Positions 14,754-55,821 of a stretch of DNA of 64,000 nucleotides are shown one piece after another (position 1 is the stretch's first letter; each line of letters begins with the position of its first letter). A program made the translations under genes and the position numbers. The notes below the pieces were generated by a model. The model was given only the letters and a program-made list of their open reading frames with translations, had not been told where the DNA came from and searched no databases. The DNA lies in assembly GCF_900103125.1 (NCBI RefSeq), contig NZ_FNJV01000008.1:62001-126000 (forward strand), given 5' to 3'. Origin of the DNA: Mucilaginibacter sp. OK268 (lineage in GTDB: Bacteria; Bacteroidota; Bacteroidia; Sphingobacteriales; Sphingobacteriaceae).

Positions 14754-16256
14754 CTAATATCCCTTTGTAGGTATCAGGTTAGGATTATTTCTTAGTTCCC
14801 GGCTTGGTATCGGGAATAAAAGCTCCCTGTCGGTTAAAACCGGTCCGTATGAAAACTTATGGCCAACATAATTATCAAAGCCTTTGGTTTCCACATTAAA
14901 TGCTTTACGAAGGCGCGCCATATCAAACCAGGTAACGTTTTCAAAGCACAGCTCATACCAGCGTTCGCGCCAGATGGCTTCGCGGAACTGCTCTTTTGAT
15001 AAGCCTGTTAGGTTAGGTAAAGTTGCTCTTGTTCTTACCTGGTTAACCGCGTCATACGCTTTTGCGCCCGGTCCATTAACTTCGTTGGATGCCTCGGCAT
15101 AAATAAGCAGCACATCGGCATAACGGATGAGCGACCAGTTCAAATCACTATTGGCCGTAGTTGTTTGTGCAACCACATCAAAAATCTTATAAATAAAATA
15201 TCCGCCCAGATCAACCACCTTAGTTCTATCGTCCTGGTTGGTGAATTTGGTAAAGAAGAACTGCCCTTCTTTAGCACGCAGATCAGCCGGATCATACGAT
15301 TGTACAAAAGCTCCCGTAGCATAAATACCCCCGGTTTCGCTGGAATAGGCTGAGATATTTTTGTTATAAGGAATGATCAACTCCTGCCAGTTTCCGGGGA
15401 TGATCTGTGTTTTATACTGGATCATGAAAATGTTCTCATCCACATTCTTCTTCGCCGGGTTGTGCAGATCGTTGTACGTGGTAAACAATTTAAATTGTTT
15501 GGAGTCCAATACCTCCTCTGCTTTTTTGGATGCCAGGTCATAATATTCAGCGCCTTTTTGCAGTGGGTAACCGGCCATGGTGAGGTATACTTTGGCCAGT
15601 AACGATTTTACGGCACCCAAACTTACCTTCCCGCTCACATCTGTCCAGGGTAAACCGGAAGCCTCAGCCGTTTTCAGGTCGTTTACAATCACTTTGTAAA
15701 CATCTTCTGCAGATGCCTGTTTGGGTCGTAGTTGCGGTGATGCCAGGTCAACAGGTTCGGTGATCAGCGGGATATTGCCAAACAGCTGCACCAAAGTAAA
15801 ATAGTACCAGGCCCTCAAAAAATGAGCTTCACCTAATAACCTTTTAGACTCAGCGGCGTCCATTGCAATCCCCGGGATCTTGGCTATGGAAAGGTTCGCA
15901 TTACCGATGCCCTTGTAATAATTTTGCCAGTAACTCAGGCCATAGGCATTATCGGCGGTATTACGCAGATCCTTTACAAAATAGCTGTCCACAGCCTGTC
16001 CCAGATCGGTAGCGGCCTGACCGGTAGCAAATTCTGTCATTGTCCACGCGCCACCGCCAAAGCCACTGCTCATGGGATCGCGCAGGCTGGCATAAATAGC
16101 ATTTACCGAACTGCGGGCATGCTCTGGCTTGGTAAAATAATTATCAACCGTAAAATTACTCTTGTCGGTTTCATTTAAAAATTTCTTACAACCGGTAACC
16201 CCTAATGTACCGACTGCTAATGCCAGTAACCCGTATTTTTTTATGATAGTTTTCAT
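14754..16256 (-). CDS. SusD/RagB-family surface lipoprotein
   Basis: A 500-residue outer-membrane lipoprotein that acts as the lid of its SusC partner and captures substrate. The signal ends in a lipobox-like VTGC (Cys23) followed by KKFLNETDK. The SusD fold is visible: tetratricopeptide-like helices (EAHFLRAWYYFTLVQLFGNIPL), LAKVYLTMAGYP, and the C-terminal ERWYELCFENVTWFDMARLRK followed by LFPIPSRELRNNPNL. It lies 26 bases after the SusC gene on the same strand. No enzyme gene is adjacent, so the transported substrate is not indicated. Confidence 0.93.
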   Translation of the reverse strand: MKTIIKKYGLLALAVGTLGVTGCKKFLNETDKSNFTVDNYFTKPEHARSSVNAIYASLRDPMSSGFGGGAWTMTEFATGQAATDLGQAVDSYFVKDLRNTADNAYGLSYWQNYYKGIGNANLSIAKIPGIAMDAAESKRLLGEAHFLRAWYYFTLVQLFGNIPLITEPVDLASPQLRPKQASAEDVYKVIVNDLKTAEASGLPWTDVSGKVSLGAVKSLLAKVYLTMAGYPLQKGAEYYDLASKKAEEVLDSKQFKLFTTYNDLHNPAKKNVDENIFMIQYKTQIIPGNWQELIIPYNKNISAYSSETGGIYATGAFVQSYDPADLRAKEGQFFFTKFTNQDDRTKVVDLGGYFIYKIFDVVAQTTTANSDLNWSLIRYADVLLIYAEASNEVNGPGAKAYDAVNQVRTRATLPNLTGLSKEQFREAIWRERWYELCFENVTWFDMARLRKAFNVETKGFDNYVGHKFSYGPVLTDRELLFPIPSRELRNNPNLIPTKGY

Positions 16257-16282: not shown

Positions 16283-19200
16283 TTATAATCCGATGTTTAA
16301 ACCAACCAGGAATACCCTTGGCTTTGGATAATCATACAAGGTTAAGCCCTGGTCAAAAGGCGCGCTGGAGTTGGAAACCTCCGGATCGTATCCTTTATAC
16401 TTGGTGGACACAAAGAAATTCTGCACCGAACCATAGATCCTCAACCGGCTCAATTTTAGCTTCGAAATGATCTTGGGCGAAAATGTATAGGCCAATAATA
16501 AATTGCGCCCGCGGATAAATGATCCATCGGTTACCTTATGGCTATCGTTATTGGTGGTGTAATAAGCGTTGATAGGACGAATTTGCGCAATAGGCGTATT
16601 CTGGTTTGTTTCCGTCCAGGCATTCAACACCGTTTTGTAACTGTTGGCAATACCCTGCCTGTCTTCTGCCGAATGGATACTCCGGTCCAGTACATCATTA
16701 CCATACGTATATTGCAGATCGACCGTAAGTGACCAGGCTTTATACTGAAAAGTATTCAGGAAAGTACCAAAACCATCAGGTATCCCCTTTCCAATGATCG
16801 TCCTGTCCAGATCGTTTATTGTACCGTCGTTATTCAGGTCTTTATACTTGATATCGCCCGGCAGCATACCATATTTCTTGGCTTCAACGGCCTCGGCAGT
16901 TCCCCAGGTTCCCAAACTAACCCGGCCAAAGAACGAACCCACAGGCTGGCCAACCCTGATAATGCCATTGCCCGATAATATATCGGCATTACCATTGGCC
17001 AGGGCAAGCACTTTGTTTTTATTGACCGAAATATTGAAGGTGGTGCTCCATGTAAAATCCCCGGTTTTAATATTGGTGGAGTTAAGGGTAAACTCGATCC
17101 CTTTGTTCTCCATGCTACCCACATTGGAATAAACGCTGCCGTAGCCACTGGAGAATGGCAAAGGAGCATCCAGCAACATACCATCTACTTTACGGCGATA
17201 CAGATCAAGCTCCAGGTTCAACCTGTTGTTGAACAGGCCCAGTTCCATACCAAAATCAAGCTGTTTAGTTTTTTCCCATTGCAAGGAGGAATTGGCCACC
17301 CGGTTGGTGCCCACGCCAATATTACGTTCGCCATTAAAAATAACATTATAGTTGCCCAGGCCGGCCAAAGCCCGGTAAGCTGGAATTTCGGAGTTACCGG
17401 TAGCGCCGTAACTGGCCCGAAGTTTTAAATTGGAAATGGCAGGGATATTTTTCATAAAATCTTCTTCCATTACCCGCCAGGCAAGGGCTGCAGACGGAAA
17501 GAAAGCGAATTGATTATCGGCCCCGAATTTTGAAGAACCATCATAACGGCCGGTAAAGGTGACTAAATATTTATCGCGAAGACTATAATTGATACGCCCA
17601 AAATAGGAGTTTAGCCCATACGCCTGCGCATTGGAATAAGGAGCCTGCGGGCTTGATCCTGCGCCGAGATTATTAAACTGAAAATAGGGGTCGGTAAAAC
17701 CCTGTGTACTGGCCTGGTCTTCAAACCGGTCAACATGTTGCCAGGATACACCACCCATAGCGGTTACCGAATGGATCTTCGCAAATTTCCGGTTATAAGT
17801 CAGGTAGTTTTCAAATTGCCATGAATTATACCGGTTATTATTGACAGAAGCATCGCCGTTATCCGAAATATATTGCATGCCTTTCACGGCAGAATAATCC
17901 TCTCTTTGATTAATAATATTTACACCCACGGTTGATTTAAAATCCAATCCAGGGGCCAAGCGAATATTGGCAGACATGTCGCCGAGTAAGGTTTGGGTAT
18001 GCAAAAGCGAGATCCTATCGGCAGCTATCCGTAAAGGATTATCACCACCTTCCATTCCCGGATAATCCCTGTTGCTTGCCCAGCTTCCATCAGCATACCT
18101 CACCGGGATGATAGGCAGTTCTTCTATCACCTGGCGCATCATGGTAATACCGCCGCCGTCGAGCTGATCTACCTGCTTATCGTCCTGGTTGGTATAACTC
18201 AGGGTACCACTAATTTTTATCCAGCTTTTGATCTGGCTGTCAAATACAAAACGACCGGCAAATCTTTTTTGCCATGACCCTTTTGCCAGGCCCTCCTGCT
18301 TACGATAGTTTAAAAAAGCGCCTATACTTCTTTTTTCGTCGCCATCTGTAATACCCAACTGATGGTTTTGCGTAAAGGCCTTTTGAAAGGCTTCTTCCTG
18401 CCAATCGGTATCATATAGTGGGTTGCCGTTGGCATCAAATAATTTAGGGTTGGTGCGCTTGGTTTTGGGGTTGGTATATTTAGTACCGGTGGCCCAGCCA
18501 ATAGGATCATATTTTTGCGCGTTAGCGTAAGCCAGGTCCTCTACGGCCAAAAACTCCTTTGAATTGAGCACCGCCAGTTTTTTAGGCAGTACACCTATGC
18601 TGAAATCAGGATCATAGGTGATTTTACCGCCGCCAGAGGTTCCGCGTTTGGTGGTCACCAGGATCACGCCATTGGCTCCACGTGCGCCGTAAATAGCGGT
18701 GGAAGAAGCGTCCTTTAACACCTCGATGGAGGCGATATCATTAGGGTTGAGGTAATCTATCGGCGTACTGCCGTTCCGCAGATCAACCGGGTTTAGTATC
18801 ACCCCGTCTATTACGTATAATGGATTATTAGAAACGCTTAGCGAACTGGAGCCACGGATACGGATATTGGACCTGGCGCCAGGTCTGCCGGAGTTGGAGG
18901 ATACATTGACACCCGATACACGACCAGACAAGCCCTGGTTTAAGGATGATACCGGGCGTTCCTGTAATGTTTCGGCTTTTACCGTGCCGACCGACCCGGT
19001 TAAATCTGATTTTTTGACCGATCCGTAGCCGATAACCACAACCTCATCTAATTTTTTTGATTGTGGTACGAGTTTGATCAGCAGGTTTCCTGGACCGGTT
19101 TTTACTTCCTGTGTAATGTAGCCCACATAGGAAACAACCAAAATGGCATCATCGGGAAGCCCTTTCAGGCTAAAGTTTCCTTCCGTATCGGTTATCGCGG

Positions 19201-19426
19201 CTTTGTCAACATTCTTTACTTTAATAGTTGCTCCGGGGACCCCAAGGCCATTCTCATCTAAAACTTTGCCGTGTACATCAATAGGCAATATAGCTGAGTA
19301 ATGCAGGGTTCGCAGGCTCTTTGCGTTGACTTGCATGGTCATGGCCATCAATACAGCCAATGCAACATACATGATCTTCAGGCCCAGGGCAGGGCCTCTG
19401 AAAGATAGGGGAAAAACTTTTTTCAT
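16283..19426 (-). CDS. SusC/RagA-family TonB-dependent receptor
   Basis: A 1047-residue outer-membrane active transporter. A signal peptide (about residues 1-36) is followed by a carboxypeptidase-like regulatory domain (about 50-121), the TonB box DEVVVIGYG (127-135), a plug with SIEVLKDASSTAIYGARGANGVI, and a 22-strand barrel ending RVFLVGLNIGL. There is no STN domain, so it is not expected to signal to a FecR. It leads a two-gene operon with the SusD-like gene. Its upstream region is unusual: two decayed tandem copies of its own start region precede it (19524-19820). Confidence 0.94.
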   Translation of the reverse strand: MKKVFPLSFRGPALGLKIMYVALAVLMAMTMQVNAKSLRTLHYSAILPIDVHGKVLDENGLGVPGATIKVKNVDKAAITDTEGNFSLKGLPDDAILVVSYVGYITQEVKTGPGNLLIKLVPQSKKLDEVVVIGYGSVKKSDLTGSVGTVKAETLQERPVSSLNQGLSGRVSGVNVSSNSGRPGARSNIRIRGSSSLSVSNNPLYVIDGVILNPVDLRNGSTPIDYLNPNDIASIEVLKDASSTAIYGARGANGVILVTTKRGTSGGGKITYDPDFSIGVLPKKLAVLNSKEFLAVEDLAYANAQKYDPIGWATGTKYTNPKTKRTNPKLFDANGNPLYDTDWQEEAFQKAFTQNHQLGITDGDEKRSIGAFLNYRKQEGLAKGSWQKRFAGRFVFDSQIKSWIKISGTLSYTNQDDKQVDQLDGGGITMMRQVIEELPIIPVRYADGSWASNRDYPGMEGGDNPLRIAADRISLLHTQTLLGDMSANIRLAPGLDFKSTVGVNIINQREDYSAVKGMQYISDNGDASVNNNRYNSWQFENYLTYNRKFAKIHSVTAMGGVSWQHVDRFEDQASTQGFTDPYFQFNNLGAGSSPQAPYSNAQAYGLNSYFGRINYSLRDKYLVTFTGRYDGSSKFGADNQFAFFPSAALAWRVMEEDFMKNIPAISNLKLRASYGATGNSEIPAYRALAGLGNYNVIFNGERNIGVGTNRVANSSLQWEKTKQLDFGMELGLFNNRLNLELDLYRRKVDGMLLDAPLPFSSGYGSVYSNVGSMENKGIEFTLNSTNIKTGDFTWSTTFNISVNKNKVLALANGNADILSGNGIIRVGQPVGSFFGRVSLGTWGTAEAVEAKKYGMLPGDIKYKDLNNDGTINDLDRTIIGKGIPDGFGTFLNTFQYKAWSLTVDLQYTYGNDVLDRSIHSAEDRQGIANSYKTVLNAWTETNQNTPIAQIRPINAYYTTNNDSHKVTDGSFIRGRNLLLAYTFSPKIISKLKLSRLRIYGSVQNFFVSTKYKGYDPEVSNSSAPFDQGLTLYDYPKPRVFLVGLNIGL

Positions 19427-19523
19427 TGCAGGAGATTTTAATTGGTTAACAGGTTAATTGATTGGAGCAGTCCGCATGCAGATATGGCTGCTCATCAGGT
19501 ATAAATAATGAAGGTTTCTTAGT

Positions 19524-19619
19524 TTAGCTGTATCGCCATAAACACAGCCGATAGACCACATCAATAATTTTTTGGCGCAAAGCGTGGCCAGCAGAAGGCG
19601 GGGTGCAAATCTGTTTCAT
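19524..19619 (-). pseudogene. Decayed copy 1 of the susC start (31 codons)
   Basis: The frame begins ATG at 19619 and reads MKQICTPP...GHALRQKIIDVV before stopping at 19524. GHALRQKI aligns with GPALGLKI of the intact susC in the same position after the Met. The copy has diverged in the hydrophobic core. It is more decayed than the copy at 19707-19820. Confidence 0.55.
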
Positions 19620-19706
19620 AGCAGGAAAATTAATTGGTTACAGGTTAATTGATTTAAGCAGTCGACGTATAGATATACTGCTCACCATGTATAAATAATA
19701 TGGGCT

Positions 19707-19820
19707 TTAGGTTTTGATATTTTGCCGCGATGGCCATATCATCAACACAGCCAATTCAACATACATGATTTTTTGGCGCAAAGCATGGCCACCAGGGGAG
19801 AGTTTGTAAAATTGTTTCAT
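19707..19820 (-). pseudogene. Decayed copy 2 of the susC start (37 codons)
   Basis: The frame begins ATG at 19820 and includes GGHALRQKIMYVELAVLM, which aligns with GPALGLKIMYVALAVLM of the intact susC signal peptide in register from the Met. It stops at 19707, just past the signal. It is a remnant of a duplicated susC 5' end; translation as an upstream leader peptide is possible but unproven. Confidence 0.6.
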
Positions 19821-20070
19821 AGCAGGAAACTTTATTGGTTACAGGTTAATTGGCATAAGCAGTCAATGTGTAGATATTGCTGCTTATTTTTTTCACGTTA
19901 TAAAACTATAATACTGCTTACGGCTATTAGTAACTAATATCAGCAATCTATTATGTTATCTTAACATGCAAATAATCAATGATATAAATATTTATATTAA
20001 ATGTATTTTATACAGGTATTTATTTTTCTTTGACGCTTTTCGGCGGAAAGGGGGAGCTGGAAATAGCCCT

Positions 20071-20212
20071 GCGCGTCATTGCGAGATACGAAGACAACCG
20101 ACCGGAGGGAGCTCATTAATATCAATAAAATAAACACAACATTAATAATCCCCGATAGGTAGGTCCGCTCTGTAAATAGGGGATTGCCACGCTATCGCTC
20201 GCAATGACGCGC
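20071..20212. repeat. Intergenic palindromic repeat, family B, copy 3
   Basis: GCGCGTCATTGCGAG (20071-20085) and CTCGCAATGACGCGC (20198-20212) are perfect 15-base inverted arms. The interior includes CCCCGATAGGTAGGTCCGC, which resembles the CCCCGATAGGCAAGTTCGCC loop of the 10571-10659 unit, plus an AT-rich insertion not present there. Confidence 0.85.
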
Positions 20213-20273
20213 GGGAAGGGATCTTTGCTCACAAAATCCTTGCTCTTTACTCCAAAAATTCGTATATTTATAT

Positions 20274-20316
20274 AAAACAGCCCGACTGCCTTTAAACAGG
20301 TAGCCGGGCTGTTTTA
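20274..20316. terminator. Strong terminator hairpin with no adjacent gene
   Basis: AAAACAGCCCG and CGGGCTGTTTT pair around an inner CTGCCT/AGGTAG stem, followed by TTATT. The nearest genes on both sides point away from it (susC left, plug gene right), so it does not terminate a recognised coding transcript. A short non-coding RNA from about 20216 to 20316 is possible. Confidence 0.7.
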
Positions 20317-20415
20317 TTAAGAGCAAAACAAGGTCAAAAATCGACCAATTTTAGCATAGTTATTTGACAATCAACTACTTAATACTTTTTAAAGTTTCAA
20401 AAACTACTCAAAACG

Positions 20416-20508
20416 GTGTTAAAATTTGTTAAAAAGTGTTAAAATCGATGTTTTTGAGCCCATTTTTGAATGATTTTACGCTGTTTTCGTACAGAAAAGT
20501 GTTAAAAT
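20416..20508 (+). promoter_or_regulatory. Phased GTGTTAAAAT repeats upstream of the type IX plug gene
   Basis: GTGTTAAAAT occurs exactly at 20416-20425, 20436-20445 and 20499-20508, with a near copy TTGTTAAAAA at 20426-20435. The first three are contiguous on a 10-base period, so they face the same side of the helix. This suggests cooperative protein binding. The gene start is at 20643. The binding protein is unknown. Confidence 0.45.
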
Positions 20509-20642
20509 TTAAGGTTTAAGAAGATTTCGCTAAATGATAATTTTTTAAATGCACAGTACCGGGTTATTTCTGTTCCGGAATTTCTTAAATTTCGCCACGC
20601 CAATCCTGCCAAGGATCGGGCAATAAAATAAGCTTAAACAAA

Positions 20643-21899
20643 ATGAGAAAACATTACTACCTATTGGTTCTCTTATTCATTACCCTGCGGGGATTTGCGC
20701 AATCGCCTTATGATAACAATGTGTATGATTCCGCTATCAAAAGCGTGGAATTCTACAACACCCAAAAGCAGGGCTCGTTCCCGGTAATCACCTTAGGATC
20801 AAATGAAAAAGTACTGCTGGCCTTTGACGATCTGCGTAGCGGTAGTCGCAATTACTATTACACCATTGAGCACTGTGATACCCGCTGGAACTCCTCGAAC
20901 CTGTCTACCGCCGAATACCTGCAAAGCTTCACCGACGATCGTTTGTATACCTATACCTACTCAACCGGTACCATTCAAAAATATACGCACTACGAGCTCA
21001 AACTGCCCAATAACAACATAGCGCCCAAAATATCAGGCAATTACATACTAAAGGTTTATGAGGATGGCGACCAGTCAAAACTGGTACTTACCCGCCGTTT
21101 ATATGTGGTAGGCAAAAGGGTGGCCATAGCGGCTACCATCGGCACCTCGCCCGATGTACAGGCCCGTAAAACCAACCAAAAGATAAACTTTACGGTTGAT
21201 TATACCGGCCTACCTGTGCAAAACCCATCTTTCGAGATCCGCGCCCTACTGATGCAGAACGCGCGTACCCAAACAGGTATTTTAAATACGCAGCCAACCT
21301 ATGTGCGTGGTACACAGTTGGTTTATAATGATGTATCGATCAATGATTTTCCGGGGCGTAACGAGTTCCGGCTGTTTGATACCCGCACCTTAAAGCTTAA
21401 TTCCCAGCGCATTGCCCGTATTATAAAAGATACGGCTAACAACGTGGTACTGTTGACTGACCCGATCCGTGATAGTCCGGATTACCTGCTGCTGTATGAT
21501 AATGATGGTAAATTCTTTGTGCTGAACCAGGATGGCAGCGACCCACGCATAGATGCCGATTATGCGCACATTTATTTTGGCCTGGCTGCTTATAAGCCTC
21601 AATCAGAGGGCAGCCCGTACATCGTGGGCGCCTTTAATGATTATAAGCTGGATGAGCGCAGCAAGTTAAATATGGGTGAAGACGGCAAATACCACATCAA
21701 TTTGCTCCTGAAGCAGGGCGTATATGATTATGCGTACGTTTGGTATGATAATGCCACCAAAAGAGCCAGTGATATACCGCTGGAAGGCAGCCATTTTGAA
21801 ACCGAAAACGATTATCAGCTGCTCATCTACTATCGCCCGCCTACCGCCCGCTGGGACGAGCTGGTTGGCTTTGGCGAACTGAATACGGTGAAAAAATAA
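20643..21899 (+). CDS. Type IX secretion system plug protein (DUF5103 family)
   Basis: A 418-residue secreted protein with a signal peptide ([20 protein letters not shown]). The N-terminal beta-rich domain ([35 protein letters not shown]...) and the later [12 protein letters not shown] and [10 protein letters not shown] segments match the DUF5103 family. A member of this family was identified as the Plug that closes the SprA translocon of the Flavobacterium type IX system. Its likely role is to seal the periplasmic side of the secretion pore. A type IX cargo is encoded at 28052-30685, consistent with an active system. It appears to be a single gene. Confidence 0.8.
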
Positions 21900-51695: not shown

Positions 51696-53093
51696 TTAAA
51701 ACCTTACTAATAACGCCCCTATAAACCTTGTTTCGGATGGTACCAGATCGGGTATAAAATCTGTTGGTACGGGAGTGGTATTATACCCATCAGGAGAGGT
51801 TACGCCGCCGTGGCCAGCAAAGTAAGGCACACTGGCATGGCGATGTACCACCTCCAGGCGGAAGGTCAGGTAATCATTTGGCATCAAGTCAATCGTGGTT
51901 GAATAATCATAGCCATGAAACTGGTCGCCGGGATTAGCCGTAAACGGATGCGAACCGACTGCTCCTGTGTTGATAGCAGGTATGGGGTTGGCATCGCCTG
52001 TTGGATATAACACCAGGTAGCGACCCGGGTTATTGATCACACCACCGCCAACTGTCCAACCCAAATGACCTTTGGCCATTACCATACGGTGATAGATCAT
52101 ACCGCTGGCAAAATATTGAGCCGGCCCCTTAACAGGATCTGAGTGGAAACCATTTACGCCATCGCCTTTTTCAAAACCGATGTCGCCGGTGATGGAGAAT
52201 GCCGCGCTGTTAACAAAGCTGCCTTTATCCTGACTTTTAAAATAGCGCACCTCAATACTGTTATCTGAGTGAAAACGCTTTCTACCAGGTTTATCCTGGG
52301 TATCGGCACCGTAATAGGTATTAGTCAAAGCCTGGAACCACTCAACAGGGCGCCATAAAATTTGACCGCCTATACCTGGCTGGCTATTAAACATGCCATA
52401 TGATTGCCAGCCATTAATCAGCCATGGTTCAATTTTCAGCTTATCGCTTACAAATATCTGCACACGGATACCATTAAAAAACCAGGGGGTATTATCAGAA
52501 GTAAATGATGGTTGGTAGGCCCAGTTTTCGGCATTGTAATAAGAGAACAAACCTACGTATGACATGAATATACCCGCGTCAACGTTAATACCATTCAATA
52601 CGTTAAAATGATAACCCGCATTAGCCTCACTTAAATAGCGATAGGCGGTACCCAGATCAAATTGCCCCCGGGTAACACTTAAATCATTGCGGGGTACTAC
52701 AGTGGCCCGAGTGCCAAACTGCGTGAGCACACTTGCACGGACATTATCATAGTGAAAATCACCACCGAACGCAACGGTTGAAATTTCAAATTCGTGATCA
52801 CGCGCCAACGCAGTTGAACCAACTACGGTATGATCGATAGGATTATTATTTGACGCGGTATAATTAAAATCGAGCAAGAAACGGCCGGTAAAATATTTAG
52901 TATCCAACAGGGCTTTGTGCCTGCGGTCGTTACCGTTAAGCCAGGTAAAATCGCCAAAAGCGAATGGCTCGGCTTTGGTTTTTACGGTATCCTTAACCAT
53001 GACACTATCCTTTTTTAAGGCAGTTGCATGATCCTGGGAATAGGCAGTAGTTAATGTTATGCCTAAAACAAGTGACAATAGAAGTTTTTTCAT
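51696..53093 (-). CDS. BBP2-type outer-membrane beta-barrel porin
   Basis: A 465-residue outer-membrane protein. A signal peptide (MKKLLLSLVLGITLTTAYSQ) is followed by barrel strands with alternating aromatic residues and a C-terminal Phe (FIGALLVRF). The FTWLNGNDRRHKALLD and YFTGRFLLDFNYTASNN start and the YGADTQDKPGRKRFHSDNSI segment resemble the Bacteroidota BBP2 (OmpL-like) barrel family. These are thought to be small-solute porins. It is the gene upstream of the secreted 192-residue protein and is separated by a terminator from the NtrC-type gene, so it has its own promoter. Confidence 0.75.
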   Translation of the reverse strand: MKKLLLSLVLGITLTTAYSQDHATALKKDSVMVKDTVKTKAEPFAFGDFTWLNGNDRRHKALLDTKYFTGRFLLDFNYTASNNNPIDHTVVGSTALARDHEFEISTVAFGGDFHYDNVRASVLTQFGTRATVVPRNDLSVTRGQFDLGTAYRYLSEANAGYHFNVLNGINVDAGIFMSYVGLFSYYNAENWAYQPSFTSDNTPWFFNGIRVQIFVSDKLKIEPWLINGWQSYGMFNSQPGIGGQILWRPVEWFQALTNTYYGADTQDKPGRKRFHSDNSIEVRYFKSQDKGSFVNSAAFSITGDIGFEKGDGVNGFHSDPVKGPAQYFASGMIYHRMVMAKGHLGWTVGGGVINNPGRYLVLYPTGDANPIPAINTGAVGSHPFTANPGDQFHGYDYSTTIDLMPNDYLTFRLEVVHRHASVPYFAGHGGVTSPDGYNTTPVPTDFIPDLVPSETRFIGALLVRF

Positions 53094-53285
53094 TTTGAAT
53101 ATGGATATTATTTGTTTTTGTAGTGGGCTAAAGCTTTGTTTTATTGTTATTGCTCTGCCATAACTACGTTAGTACTATTTGCGGCTTAGTAGCCAATAGG
53201 TATACCAGACTGAAAACCTTGATGTATATTAATTGACTATCAGCAACTTATTTTTAATTCTATTTTTTGAATGTTGCTTTATAAA

Positions 53286-53319
53286 AGAAAACCATCTCAC
53301 TTTACTAAGATGGTTTTCT
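53286..53319 (-). terminator. Terminator of the GNAT-M20-NtrC operon
   Basis: AGAAAACCATCT and AGATGGTTTTCT form a perfect 12-pair stem around a 10-base loop. On the minus strand it is followed by TTTTAT and lies 9 bases past the NtrC-type stop codon. Confidence 0.9.
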
Positions 53320-53327
53320 CATTTTGA

Positions 53328-54668
53328 TCAGTTCATGAGTATTTGGTATTCCTCAATTTTGCGGTAAAGTGTGGCCAGGCCGATACCGAGGATCCTGGCT
53401 GCTTCCGTTTTATTACCCTTGGTGTATTTTAATATACGCCTGATGTGGTGTCTCTCCACACTGTGCAGATCAAGTGCAACCAGGTCATAGTAACCTCCAT
53501 TATGAAATTCATAAGGTAAAAGCTTTGGAGTAAGCAAGGGTTCATCCATCAGGATAACCACTCTTTCTATCACATTTTTAAGCTCCCTGATATTCCCGTT
53601 CCATTTGTGCTGGTTCAACAGTTTAAAAAATGTTGTATCAACATCTGGTATCTTCTTTTTAACCTTAGCCGAGTAAATTTTAATAAAATGCCGGGCCAAC
53701 ACTTCTATATCCCCTATCCGTTCGCGCAACGGGGGCAGCACTATAGAAAACCCGGATAGGCGGTAAAACAGGTCAAGCCGAAAATGCCCTTCCTCCGATT
53801 CCTTTTGCAGATCGCGGTTGGTAGCAGCAATCAGCCGTACATTTATTTTGGTGGTTTTGGTTTCGCCAATTTTAATAAAAGTACCATTTTCCAATACGCG
53901 CAATAATTTAGCTTGCAGATCATGACTCATTTCTCCTAATTCATCTAAAAAAATTGTTCCGCCGCTGGCCTCTTCAAACAGCCCCTTTTTATCTTTAACA
54001 GCTCCCGTAAAAGCCCCGGCTTTATAACCAAACAGCTCGCTTTCCAATAATTCTTTACTAAAAGCGCTGCAGTTAACCGCCACAAAAGGTTTATCTTTTC
54101 TTAAGCTTTCATAATGTATAGCCTCGGCAAATACTTCTTTACCCGTACCCGTTTCTCCCAGCAGTAAAACGGTCGCATCAGTTTTAGCTACTTTTTTGGC
54201 CAGTTCAACAGCTTCCAAAATAGCGGGCGATCGTCCTAAAACAATGGGGAAGCCGTGTTGTGCTTCTACCTGATCCTGCAGCTCACTTACCTGGTATTGT
54301 AAGTTGGCCTTTTGTATAGCTTTGCTTACCATGGGTATGATCTTATCATTATCATCGCCTTTGGTAAGGTAATCAAAGGCCCCGTTCTTGATGGCTAAAA
54401 CCCCATCACTGATGGATCCGAAAGCAGTAAGATTGATCACTTCTATATAAGGTTTAATCTGCTTGATCTTACTCACCAGATCTACCCCATTGGCGTCGGG
54501 CAACTTTACATCGCTCAGCACAACCATAATATCCTCACGCTCAACGATACGTATCCCTGTTTTGGCATTTGCCGCCTGTGTTACATGATACCCTTCCAGG
54601 CTTAGTATACGGGCCAATAATTCGCTGAGCTTAACCTCGTCATCAATTATTAATATGTTTGATTTCAT
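53328..54668 (-). CDS. NtrC-type sigma-54-dependent response regulator
   Basis: A 446-residue regulator: a receiver (about 1-120, phospho-acceptor Asp53 in LSDVKLPD), an AAA+ domain with GETGTGKE, the consensus sigma-54 loop GAFTGA and GGTIFLDELGE, and a C-terminal Fis-type HTH (GNKTEAARILGIGLATLYRKI). It is a close paralogue of 23131-24477. Its ATG lies 26 bases inside the M20 gene, so the two are translationally coupled. It is the last gene of the GNAT-M20-NtrC operon. No histidine kinase is nearby; it may respond to the operon's metabolite or to a remote kinase. Confidence 0.93.
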   Translation of the reverse strand: MKSNILIIDDEVKLSELLARILSLEGYHVTQAANAKTGIRIVEREDIMVVLSDVKLPDANGVDLVSKIKQIKPYIEVINLTAFGSISDGVLAIKNGAFDYLTKGDDNDKIIPMVSKAIQKANLQYQVSELQDQVEAQHGFPIVLGRSPAILEAVELAKKVAKTDATVLLLGETGTGKEVFAEAIHYESLRKDKPFVAVNCSAFSKELLESELFGYKAGAFTGAVKDKKGLFEEASGGTIFLDELGEMSHDLQAKLLRVLENGTFIKIGETKTTKINVRLIAATNRDLQKESEEGHFRLDLFYRLSGFSIVLPPLRERIGDIEVLARHFIKIYSAKVKKKIPDVDTTFFKLLNQHKWNGNIRELKNVIERVVILMDEPLLTPKLLPYEFHNGGYYDLVALDLHSVERHHIRRILKYTKGNKTEAARILGIGLATLYRKIEEYQILMN

Positions 54669-55821
54669 TTCTGTACTTGTTTGGATTGTTGATCAACATC
54701 AGCGGCAGGGTTTCCAATAGCCTGACGTAAGTGTTGATCCCTTTTTTGATCTCTTCGAGGTAAATAAACTCATCGGAGGAGTGAGACCTGGCAGAATCCC
54801 CAGGGCCTATTTTTACTGATGGAATAGTTAACCAGGCCTGATCTGAAGTGGTAGGAGAGCTGTAGGTTTTGCACCCTATAGCAATACCGGCCCGCACGAT
54901 CGGATGATCAACCGGAACTGAAGATGCCCCCAATGACCCTGGACGCACGATGATCTGGCATGACACATTCTTTTTAATGGTATCCAGGATCTCCTGCTGG
55001 CTGTACGTATCATCATTACGGATATCTACCGTAAACTCACATAAAGCAGGTACAATATTATGCTGTAAACCCGATTTGATGATGGTGATGGTCATTTTTA
55101 CCGGCGGCAATCCTCTAAACTGTTGCGGAAACTGGTAATTTCTGAACCAATCCAGGTCTTTCAGGCATTTGTGAATAGCATTATCCCCTTCTTCCCTGGC
55201 AGCGTGACCCGAGCGGCCGTTGCTGATGCAATCAATCACCAGGTTTCCCTTTTCGGCAACCGCCATTTGTAATAAGGTTGGCTCGCCTACAATGGCCAGC
55301 TCTAATTTACCCAATAAGGGTAAAATGGATTTAATACCGTTTTGACCGGAGTTTTCTTCCTCCGCAGTAGCTGCCAGACAGAGGTTAAAACCCAGGCCCT
55401 GGTAACAATAAAAATGCAGAAAAGTAGCGATGAGCGATACCAGGCACCCTCCGGCATCATTACTACCCAGGCCATATAGTTTTCCTAATGTTATTTCGGG
55501 GCAAAAAGGATCATTGGTATAGCCTTCGTTGGGCCTAACCGTATCTAAATGGGAATTGAGCAGGATGGTAGGTTTAGTACCATCATAGTATTTGTTATAG
55601 CACCAAACGTTATTACCTTTTCTTTTTACTTTGATGGAGTAACCGGCCAGATATCGCTGTACAATATCTGCGACCGCACCTTCGTTGCCACTAAATGAAG
55701 GTGTTTTAATTAATTGTTGCAGCAAACTTACCGACTCACTAAAAAGCTGTGCGTTCATAGGCAGGCCTGTCCATAACGGAGAAACATCTGCCCGCTCATT
55801 CAAATCTTTTATCATAACCAT
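54643..55821 (-). CDS. M20-family metallo-hydrolase, ArgE/acetylcitrulline-deacetylase-like
   Basis: A 392-residue zinc-dependent amidohydrolase. The M20 metal site is present: LLNSHLDTVRP (first His-X-Asp), GLGSNDAGGCLVS (bridging Asp), and TAEEENSGQNG (catalytic Glu-Glu). VGEPTLLQMAVAEKG and the GHAAREEG motif belong to the lid and dimer domain. The closest look-alikes are the Bacteroidota arginine-pathway deacetylases acting on acetylated amino acids. It sits 6 bases after a GNAT gene and overlaps the NtrC-type gene, unlike a normal arginine cluster, where argC, argB and argF' would be neighbours. The ATG at 55821 was used; the ATG at 55758 (MNAQLFSESV) is an alternative. Confidence 0.85.
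   Translation of the reverse strand: MVMIKDLNERADVSPLWTGLPMNAQLFSESVSLLQQLIKTPSFSGNEGAVADIVQRYLAGYSIKVKRKGNNVWCYNKYYDGTKPTILLNSHLDTVRPNEGYTNDPFCPEITLGKLYGLGSNDAGGCLVSLIATFLHFYCYQGLGFNLCLAATAEEENSGQNGIKSILPLLGKLELAIVGEPTLLQMAVAEKGNLVIDCISNGRSGHAAREEGDNAIHKCLKDLDWFRNYQFPQQFRGLPPVKMTITIIKSGLQHNIVPALCEFTVDIRNDDTYSQQEILDTIKKNVSCQIIVRPGSLGASSVPVDHPIVRAGIAIGCKTYSSPTTSDQAWLTIPSVKIGPGDSARSHSSDEFIYLEEIKKGINTYVRLLETLPLMLINNPNKYRNEIKHINN

Follow-up and report, generated by a model that had tools for sequence, protein, structure and literature searches.

Three tandem copies of a susC 5' end at a single locus shared by three Mucilaginibacter species

Introduction

Why would the start of an outer membrane protein gene be present three times ahead of a single gene body, and do the extra starts do anything for the gene that follows? 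This question is raised by a susC locus of Mucilaginibacter sp. OK268, found in a 64,000-nucleotide stretch of its genome (the window). A preliminary description of the window reported tandem, decayed copies of a susC leader and signal peptide on the minus strand, and offered as explanations recombination among susC genes, a leader array that tunes translation, or several promoters. Tandem partial gene duplication is a general mutational class. To our knowledge, the post-transcriptional setting of SusC output has been little studied outside Bacteroides. Here, we describe the array, trace its age and origin, and weigh what may have kept it in place.

Results

The susC 5' end is present in three head-to-tail units

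The locus resembles other SusC/RagA-SusD uptake pairs in having a complete susC and a complete susD with ordinary domains; what is unusual is confined to the 5' leader. A whole-protein TIGR04056 match above cut-off, together with the PF07715 plug and the PF00593 barrel, both above cut-off, places the SusC protein in the SusC/RagA family. The genes, units, and upstream open reading frames (uORFs) are as follows.

16283..19426, minus strand: susC, intact, encoding a SusC/RagA family TonB-linked outer membrane protein of 1047 amino acids (TIGR04056, 868.7 bits; cut-off, 368.25)
14754..16256, minus strand: susD partner, 500 amino acids (PF07980, 115.3 bits; cut-off, 23.1)
about 19700-19895, minus strand: unit 1 (U1), distal copy of the susC 5' end, with stem-loop (19857-19885), leader, uORF1, and spacer
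about 19505-19699, minus strand: unit 2 (U2), middle copy, with stem-loop (19656-19683), leader, uORF2, and spacer
19427..19504, minus strand: unit 3 (U3), leader of susC proper, with stem-loop (19465-19493) and start region; ATG at 19426
19707..19820, minus strand: uORF1, 37 codons, peptide MKQFYKLSPGGHALRQKIMYVELAVLMIWPSRQNIKT
19524..19619, minus strand: uORF2, 31 codons, peptide MKQICTPPSAGHALRQKIIDVVYRLCLWRYS

Two extra copies of the susC 5' end thus lie upstream of the intact gene, head to tail with it, at ATG-to-ATG distances of 201 and 193 nt, in agreement with the period of about 195 bases first reported. All three units have the same order of elements: a short stem-loop (arms AAGCAG..CTGCTT in U1, GAGCAG..CTGCTT in U2, and GAGCAG..CTGCTC in U3), a leader of the CAATTAACCTGT(T)AACCAAT type, TCCTGC, and the ATG. 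Base-by-base global alignment, proposed in the preliminary description as a check, gives identities far above random, with 140/184 identical positions for U1-U2, 137/195 for U1-U3, and 137/185 for U2-U3 (70-76%). The best of 1000 shuffles per pair scored 10.5, -0.5, and 9.5, against 153.5, 120, and 119.5 for the real alignments, which lie about 15 to 19 standard deviations over the shuffle mean. Independent repeat finding also recovers the units, as repeats of 119 nt at 81%, 47 nt in three copies, and 51 nt at 82%. Tandem Repeats Finder at its default score does not list the array, as expected for copies so diverged.

The two signal-peptide motifs first described for the upstream copies differ in their distribution: GHALRQKI is present in both copies, but KIMYVELAVLM is restricted to U1, with KIIDVVYRLCLW at that place in U2. 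Both upstream peptides do stop soon, as stated. Repetition of a 5' end without the gene body is indeed unusual, as had been remarked. A self-repeat test with 40 shuffles per gene and 630 nt of upstream DNA identifies such a 5' end at 1 of the 124 TonB plug genes of the OK268 genome (z of 29; next highest, 5.7).

The array is older than the three species that carry it

Looking for the same array in related genomes, a further check proposed at the outset, identified three units at the orthologous locus in two other members of the genus, Mucilaginibacter sp. SG564 (G022; L002, L070) and G083 (L023). ATG spacings in these relatives are 200/199 and 201/202 nt, and uORF1 has 37, 36, and 36 codons in OK268 and the two relatives, with 31 codons for uORF2 in all three. 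An assembly artefact is therefore unlikely, because three separate assemblies agree.

In a maximum likelihood tree of the nine units (200 bootstraps), the units of the two relatives pair by position, with support of 93 for U1, 100 for U2, and 88 for U3. The three U1 sequences stand apart from the rest with support of 96 and all U3 sequences group together with support of 100; OK268 U2 joins the other U2 sequences with support of only 46. Clustering by position indicates that the array is older than the species split, and on the simplest reading three units would already have been present before the three species parted. Concerted evolution between units had been suspected from the GHALRQKI shared by U1 and U2 of OK268, where the relatives have GHALPKKI and GRALPKKI/V. 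It is not supported, as the units group by position and RQK is the state seen in orthologues (below), making RQK probably ancestral.

Within the genus, a DNA search matched 5 of 149 genomes, three of them with the array and the other two over 30 and 36 bases only. A wider self-repeat survey found the array at 3 of 110 distinct loci, with a next highest z of 4.6 (112 items, 111 tested, L098 being too short and the OK268 locus entered twice); gene starts in this survey were placed at the first ATG in the longest frame, and some of them may be incorrect. A model built from the nine units, on sequence alone, gave nine strong matches, all within the three array loci. When searched against the 149 genus genomes, the model matched 101 at an E value of up to 0.1, and 39 weak-match loci were translated (12 from the search of the OK268 genome and 27 from that of the genus). 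Many of these lie at ordinary gene starts, mostly with signal-peptide-like or lipoprotein-like N termini, and some sites have no long ORF. No further clusters at 200-nt spacing were present among the matches listed. Of 399 genomes sampled from the family, 5 matched at 1e-5: the three array genomes and two of another genus, each with a lone susC start and no repeat of it seen within 700 nt upstream. A wider family of such arrays was thus rejected, strong matches being confined to the three array loci. Among the titles and abstract openings listed from an open-access library, none described tandem susC leaders.

Start regions and stem-loops are common to all units

All nine units keep the ATG and a leader core, TTAAnCTGT, and the start regions are among the best conserved columns of the nine-unit alignment. 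In Flavobacterium johnsoniae, initiation is favoured by adenines at -3, -6, -12, and -13, according to part of one study (PMC6847099). The units have G at -3, C at -6, and A at -12 (9/9 each), with T or A at -13. Since this start context is common to all units, the uORFs should, by context alone, resemble susC in how well, or how poorly, they initiate.

Pairing of the 6-bp stem holds in 92.6% of cells, whereas slid versions reach 50% at most. Variation is seen at all six pairs, with double changes at two; the covariation is modest, its score being reached by 34 of 500 shuffles, and single-sequence folds of the nine leaders are mixed (z-scores from -2.5 to +1.5). A candidate second stem, with three GGC/GCC pairs, lies inside the ORFs. 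An alternative stem masking the start codon (AGCAG with CTGCT), noticed by eye, was discarded, being absent from the start region of G083 U2.

Tests of uORF retention give divided answers

The copies had been called decayed, a term that suits the drifted peptides but not the frames, which are open, with the same start and near-equal length, in all three species. The question is whether the array has been retained as a leader or is a neutral relic, that is, a set of harmless partial duplicates drifting slowly, with frames open by chance and shortness. On the side of retention, the number of units is the same and their spacing and codon numbers are near-constant across three species. The uORF1 alignment has one in-frame gap of 3 nt, and that of uORF2 has no gap in either relative. 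Under neutrality (uniform substitution, with branch lengths chosen by hand to reflect the divergence seen), start, stop, and frame would be kept in both relatives with P values of 0.010 for uORF1 and 0.032 for uORF2. Only 1 of 13 gap events in the three-species alignment falls inside a uORF, where it is 3 nt long, and 9 of the 12 gaps outside are not multiples of three (binomial P of 0.026, or 0.10 when the gap immediately following the uORF1 stop is taken as inside). Further, uORF2 is better conserved than its spacer and leader flanks in the SG564-G083 pair (89/96 versus 116/152 identical positions; P of 0.0005), and conservation of the start regions in every unit also argues against a relic. 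Pairing of the 6-bp stem counts for retention, its modest covariation and the mixed folds against.

Other tests favour the relic. In the same pair, uORF1 and the spacers are equally conserved (88/112 identical positions each; P of 0.56). Comparing OK268 with its relatives, uORF2 does not exceed its flanks in conservation at the 5% level (P of 0.05-0.24), and uORF1 exceeds its flanks against SG564 (P of 0.013) but not against G083 (P of 0.23). With the variable sites fixed, openness of the frames is unremarkable, at P values of 0.24, 0.22, and 0.94 for uORF1 and 0.13 and 0.50 for uORF2 (five of six pairs, leaving out uORF2 of OK268-G083). The peptides drift almost as freely as the DNA: the number of changed residues is as expected from DNA changes placed at random in 6/6 comparisons (P of 0.14-0.57), and a BLOSUM score test reaches P of 0.025 in one of six. 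dN/dS (NG86) between OK268 and SG564 is 0.70 for uORF1 and 0.90 for uORF2; the ratios from the other pairs (0.34 and 0.39 for uORF1; 0.84 and 0.20 for uORF2) are lower and speak against free drift. The hydrophobic stretch of uORF1, read by eye, is weaker or missing in the relatives. For the neutral, residue-change, and fixed-site tests, one OK268 uORF1 codon was dropped so that the lengths agreed with the relatives; which codon is the extra one is ambiguous, and the choice differs from the gap position in the three-species alignment.

On the side of retention, the U1 leader and the block preceding it are 83-94% identical between species, close to the susC coding start (83-93%) and unlike the two spacers (51-80%). 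No clear selection at the amino acid level is apparent, none being significant, so either the presence and length of the uORFs alone would matter, or the uORFs drift. Support for retention of the open frames depends on the null model used, some tests favouring it and others not. We consider a slowly decaying relic a serious contender, almost as likely as a retained leader.

The copies derive from the locus's own susC

A SusC search over species genomes, from which the best 80 of 300 relatives were taken, returned among these 80 SG564, at 96% identity, and 15 further orthologues from Pedobacter and Chitinophaga, at 78-87% identity over the best segment (L071-L080, L085, L090, L096, L132, and L141). 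None of the 15 has the array by the self-repeat test (highest z, 3.6). Reading the last 220 nt upstream and the first 60 nt of each gene showed ALRQKI near the SusC N terminus in 15/15. In OK268, both uORFs encode GHALRQKI, but SusC itself now has GPALGLKI, so the upstream copies probably preserve the motif in an older form than susC does. Because the start motif of the orthologues is that of the uORF copies, the copies derive from the locus's own susC lineage, a result favouring tandem partial duplication over recombination with another susC. As a separate observation, several of the 15 orthologues may fold stem-loops of unrelated sequence within 220 nt upstream of susC, for example CCTGCTGC..GCAGCAGG in L073.

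These results bear on the first explanation offered for the array, a remnant of recombination among susC genes, and on a related one, a cassette system swapping their 5' ends. The 124 TonB plug matches of the genome speak for such exchange, yet the copies match the 5' end of their own orthologues, and no other place in the OK268 genome matches the units strongly (next best E value, 0.28; in a second search, 19 bits versus 104-110 for the array units). A dispersed repeat or mobile element was rejected on the same absence of a good match elsewhere. Signs of a shufflon-type or invertible locus were not found either: a scan of nine proteins, those of susC, susD, and seven neighbouring genes, gave no recombinase, and 19000-20500 contains three short inverted pairs (14-20 nt) but no long inverted repeats. 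We therefore regard recombination between susC genes as very improbable.

A single promoter-like site precedes the array

Upstream of U1 lie the following features.

19897..19996, minus strand: conserved block ahead of the array, 83-90% identity among the three species
19972-19943, minus strand: Bacteroidetes-type promoter-like site (TTTG, 18 nt, TAGATTGC), from a consensus scan, inside the conserved block
19953-19967: perfect 15-bp palindrome, ATGTTA-AGA-TAACAT, read from the sequence and identical in the three species

The promoter-like site was found by a scan with the consensus TTTG-N18-21-TAnnTTTG and is at the same place in all three species; its score alone is not significant, 2.0 such sites being expected per 960 nt. 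The palindrome sits between the two promoter-like elements and is a possible operator.

Alternative promoters, one per unit and giving several transcription starts, would make use of the full leader copy that every unit contains. The consensus scan does not support this suggestion of the preliminary description: in OK268 the sole susC-directed site precedes U1, with none in U2 or U3, and an extra site inside uORF2 is weak and restricted to SG564. Sigma-70-type matches in the same kind of scan are near the shuffled level (6 versus 4.9). Promoters in each unit are, in our estimate, slightly less probable even than recombination. Least probable is that the array serves as target or decoy for an antisense RNA transcribed on the other strand across the start of susC. 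This would resemble DonS-type control in Bacteroides, which would act at the same place (PMC7366714) and where RNAs antisense to susC homologues have been described (PMC7366714 and PMC10994844). The consensus scan found no divergent, plus-strand promoter-like site within 19426-19895 (nearest at 20239), and no Rfam family reaches its gathering score in 18900-20900.

The sole terminator-like site found in 19300-20700 (20346-20332) is upstream of the array, and an intrinsic terminator between uORF and gene, the mark of a transcription attenuator, was not found. Two other features were observed in the intergenic region. A REP-like inverted repeat of the GCGTCATTGCGAG type is present at 20068-20085 and 20198-20215, between susC and a divergent gene with a T9SS plug domain, and G083 has a similar GCGAG...CTCGCAATGACA stretch. 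A 20-bp hairpin at 20272-20317 is 90% complementary, with T/A-rich runs on both sides, and is also found in SG564; it lies between divergent genes, where no terminator is expected, and could end a small RNA.

A second susC is preceded by an unrelated uORF

A different OK268 susC, at about 52710 to 55780 of the contig and left of the window, is preceded by a conserved 28-codon uORF.

L281 ~1432-1518 (G000:C15 ~52551-52637), about 9.4 kb left of the window: second-susC uORF, MKKNNT.....FFKG....YHQPP-stop

This uORF lies 72-73 nt ahead of its susC, is unrelated in sequence to the array uORFs, and is also found in SG564 and G087, making 3 of 149 genomes by pattern (loci L279, L280, and L281). Its Pro-Pro-stop end is a possible ribosome-pausing site. 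This second case is a hint that the array may not be the only place where a uORF precedes a susC gene.

Discussion

Our preferred reading, which we judge about evenly poised between right and wrong, is that the array began as an old tandem partial duplication and is now a translated leader with one promoter and two uORFs, kept because it sets susC output. Two tandem duplications of about 200 bp each would have occurred in the common ancestor of the three species, each copying the 5' leader and signal-peptide codons of the locus's own susC without the promoter. The susCD message would then start at one promoter ahead of U1 and carry two short uORFs in a leader about 510 nt long, both of them with a susC-type stem-loop and start region. 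Ribosomes would initiate at the uORFs in the same way as at susC, and susC output would be set by their passage over two copies of its own start. The array may have been retained since such a leader diverts or delays ribosomes, or stays ribosome-covered. Tuning of susC translation by a leader array, as first suggested, is thus possible. A more specific version, in which the gene has made its own regulator by copying its 5' end, seems to us improbable. The two uORFs derived from the signal peptide would then be a stepwise translational gate, with the load on ribosomes or the secretion pathway sampled by the stem-loop and start region of every unit ahead of susC. If it were true, the HQPP-stop uORF of the second susC would widen uORF control to more susC genes of the genus.

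Unlike classical attenuation, the proposed translated leader would work without a terminator, none having been found between the uORFs and susC. As a tandem partial gene duplication, the locus is conventional in its head-to-tail segment copies and in having truncated copies upstream of an intact gene; it differs in that all three units were in place before the three species diverged and have been kept since, their frames open and near-constant in length. In Bacteroides thetaiotaomicron, 13.5% of mRNAs have 5' UTRs over 100 nt, and some long 5' UTRs contain several putative sORFs, for example ahead of BT_4401 (both from part of PMC7366714). Those leaders are alike in having short ORFs, more than one per leader, in the same phylum. 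In contrast, the putative uORFs here are tandem copies of the 5' end of the downstream gene, each with susC's own start region and stem-loop. Long 5' UTRs with multiple sORFs are thus already known, and uORFs copied from the gene's own start are a variant.

SusC genes are numerous in these bacteria, as the plug matches of OK268 illustrate. If the array is a neutral relic, it is still a clean case of a partial tandem duplication outlasting speciation. The triplicated susC start in three species is a compact test case for control of a gene by uORFs derived from its own start, and could show how a new leader regulator arises by simple tandem duplication.
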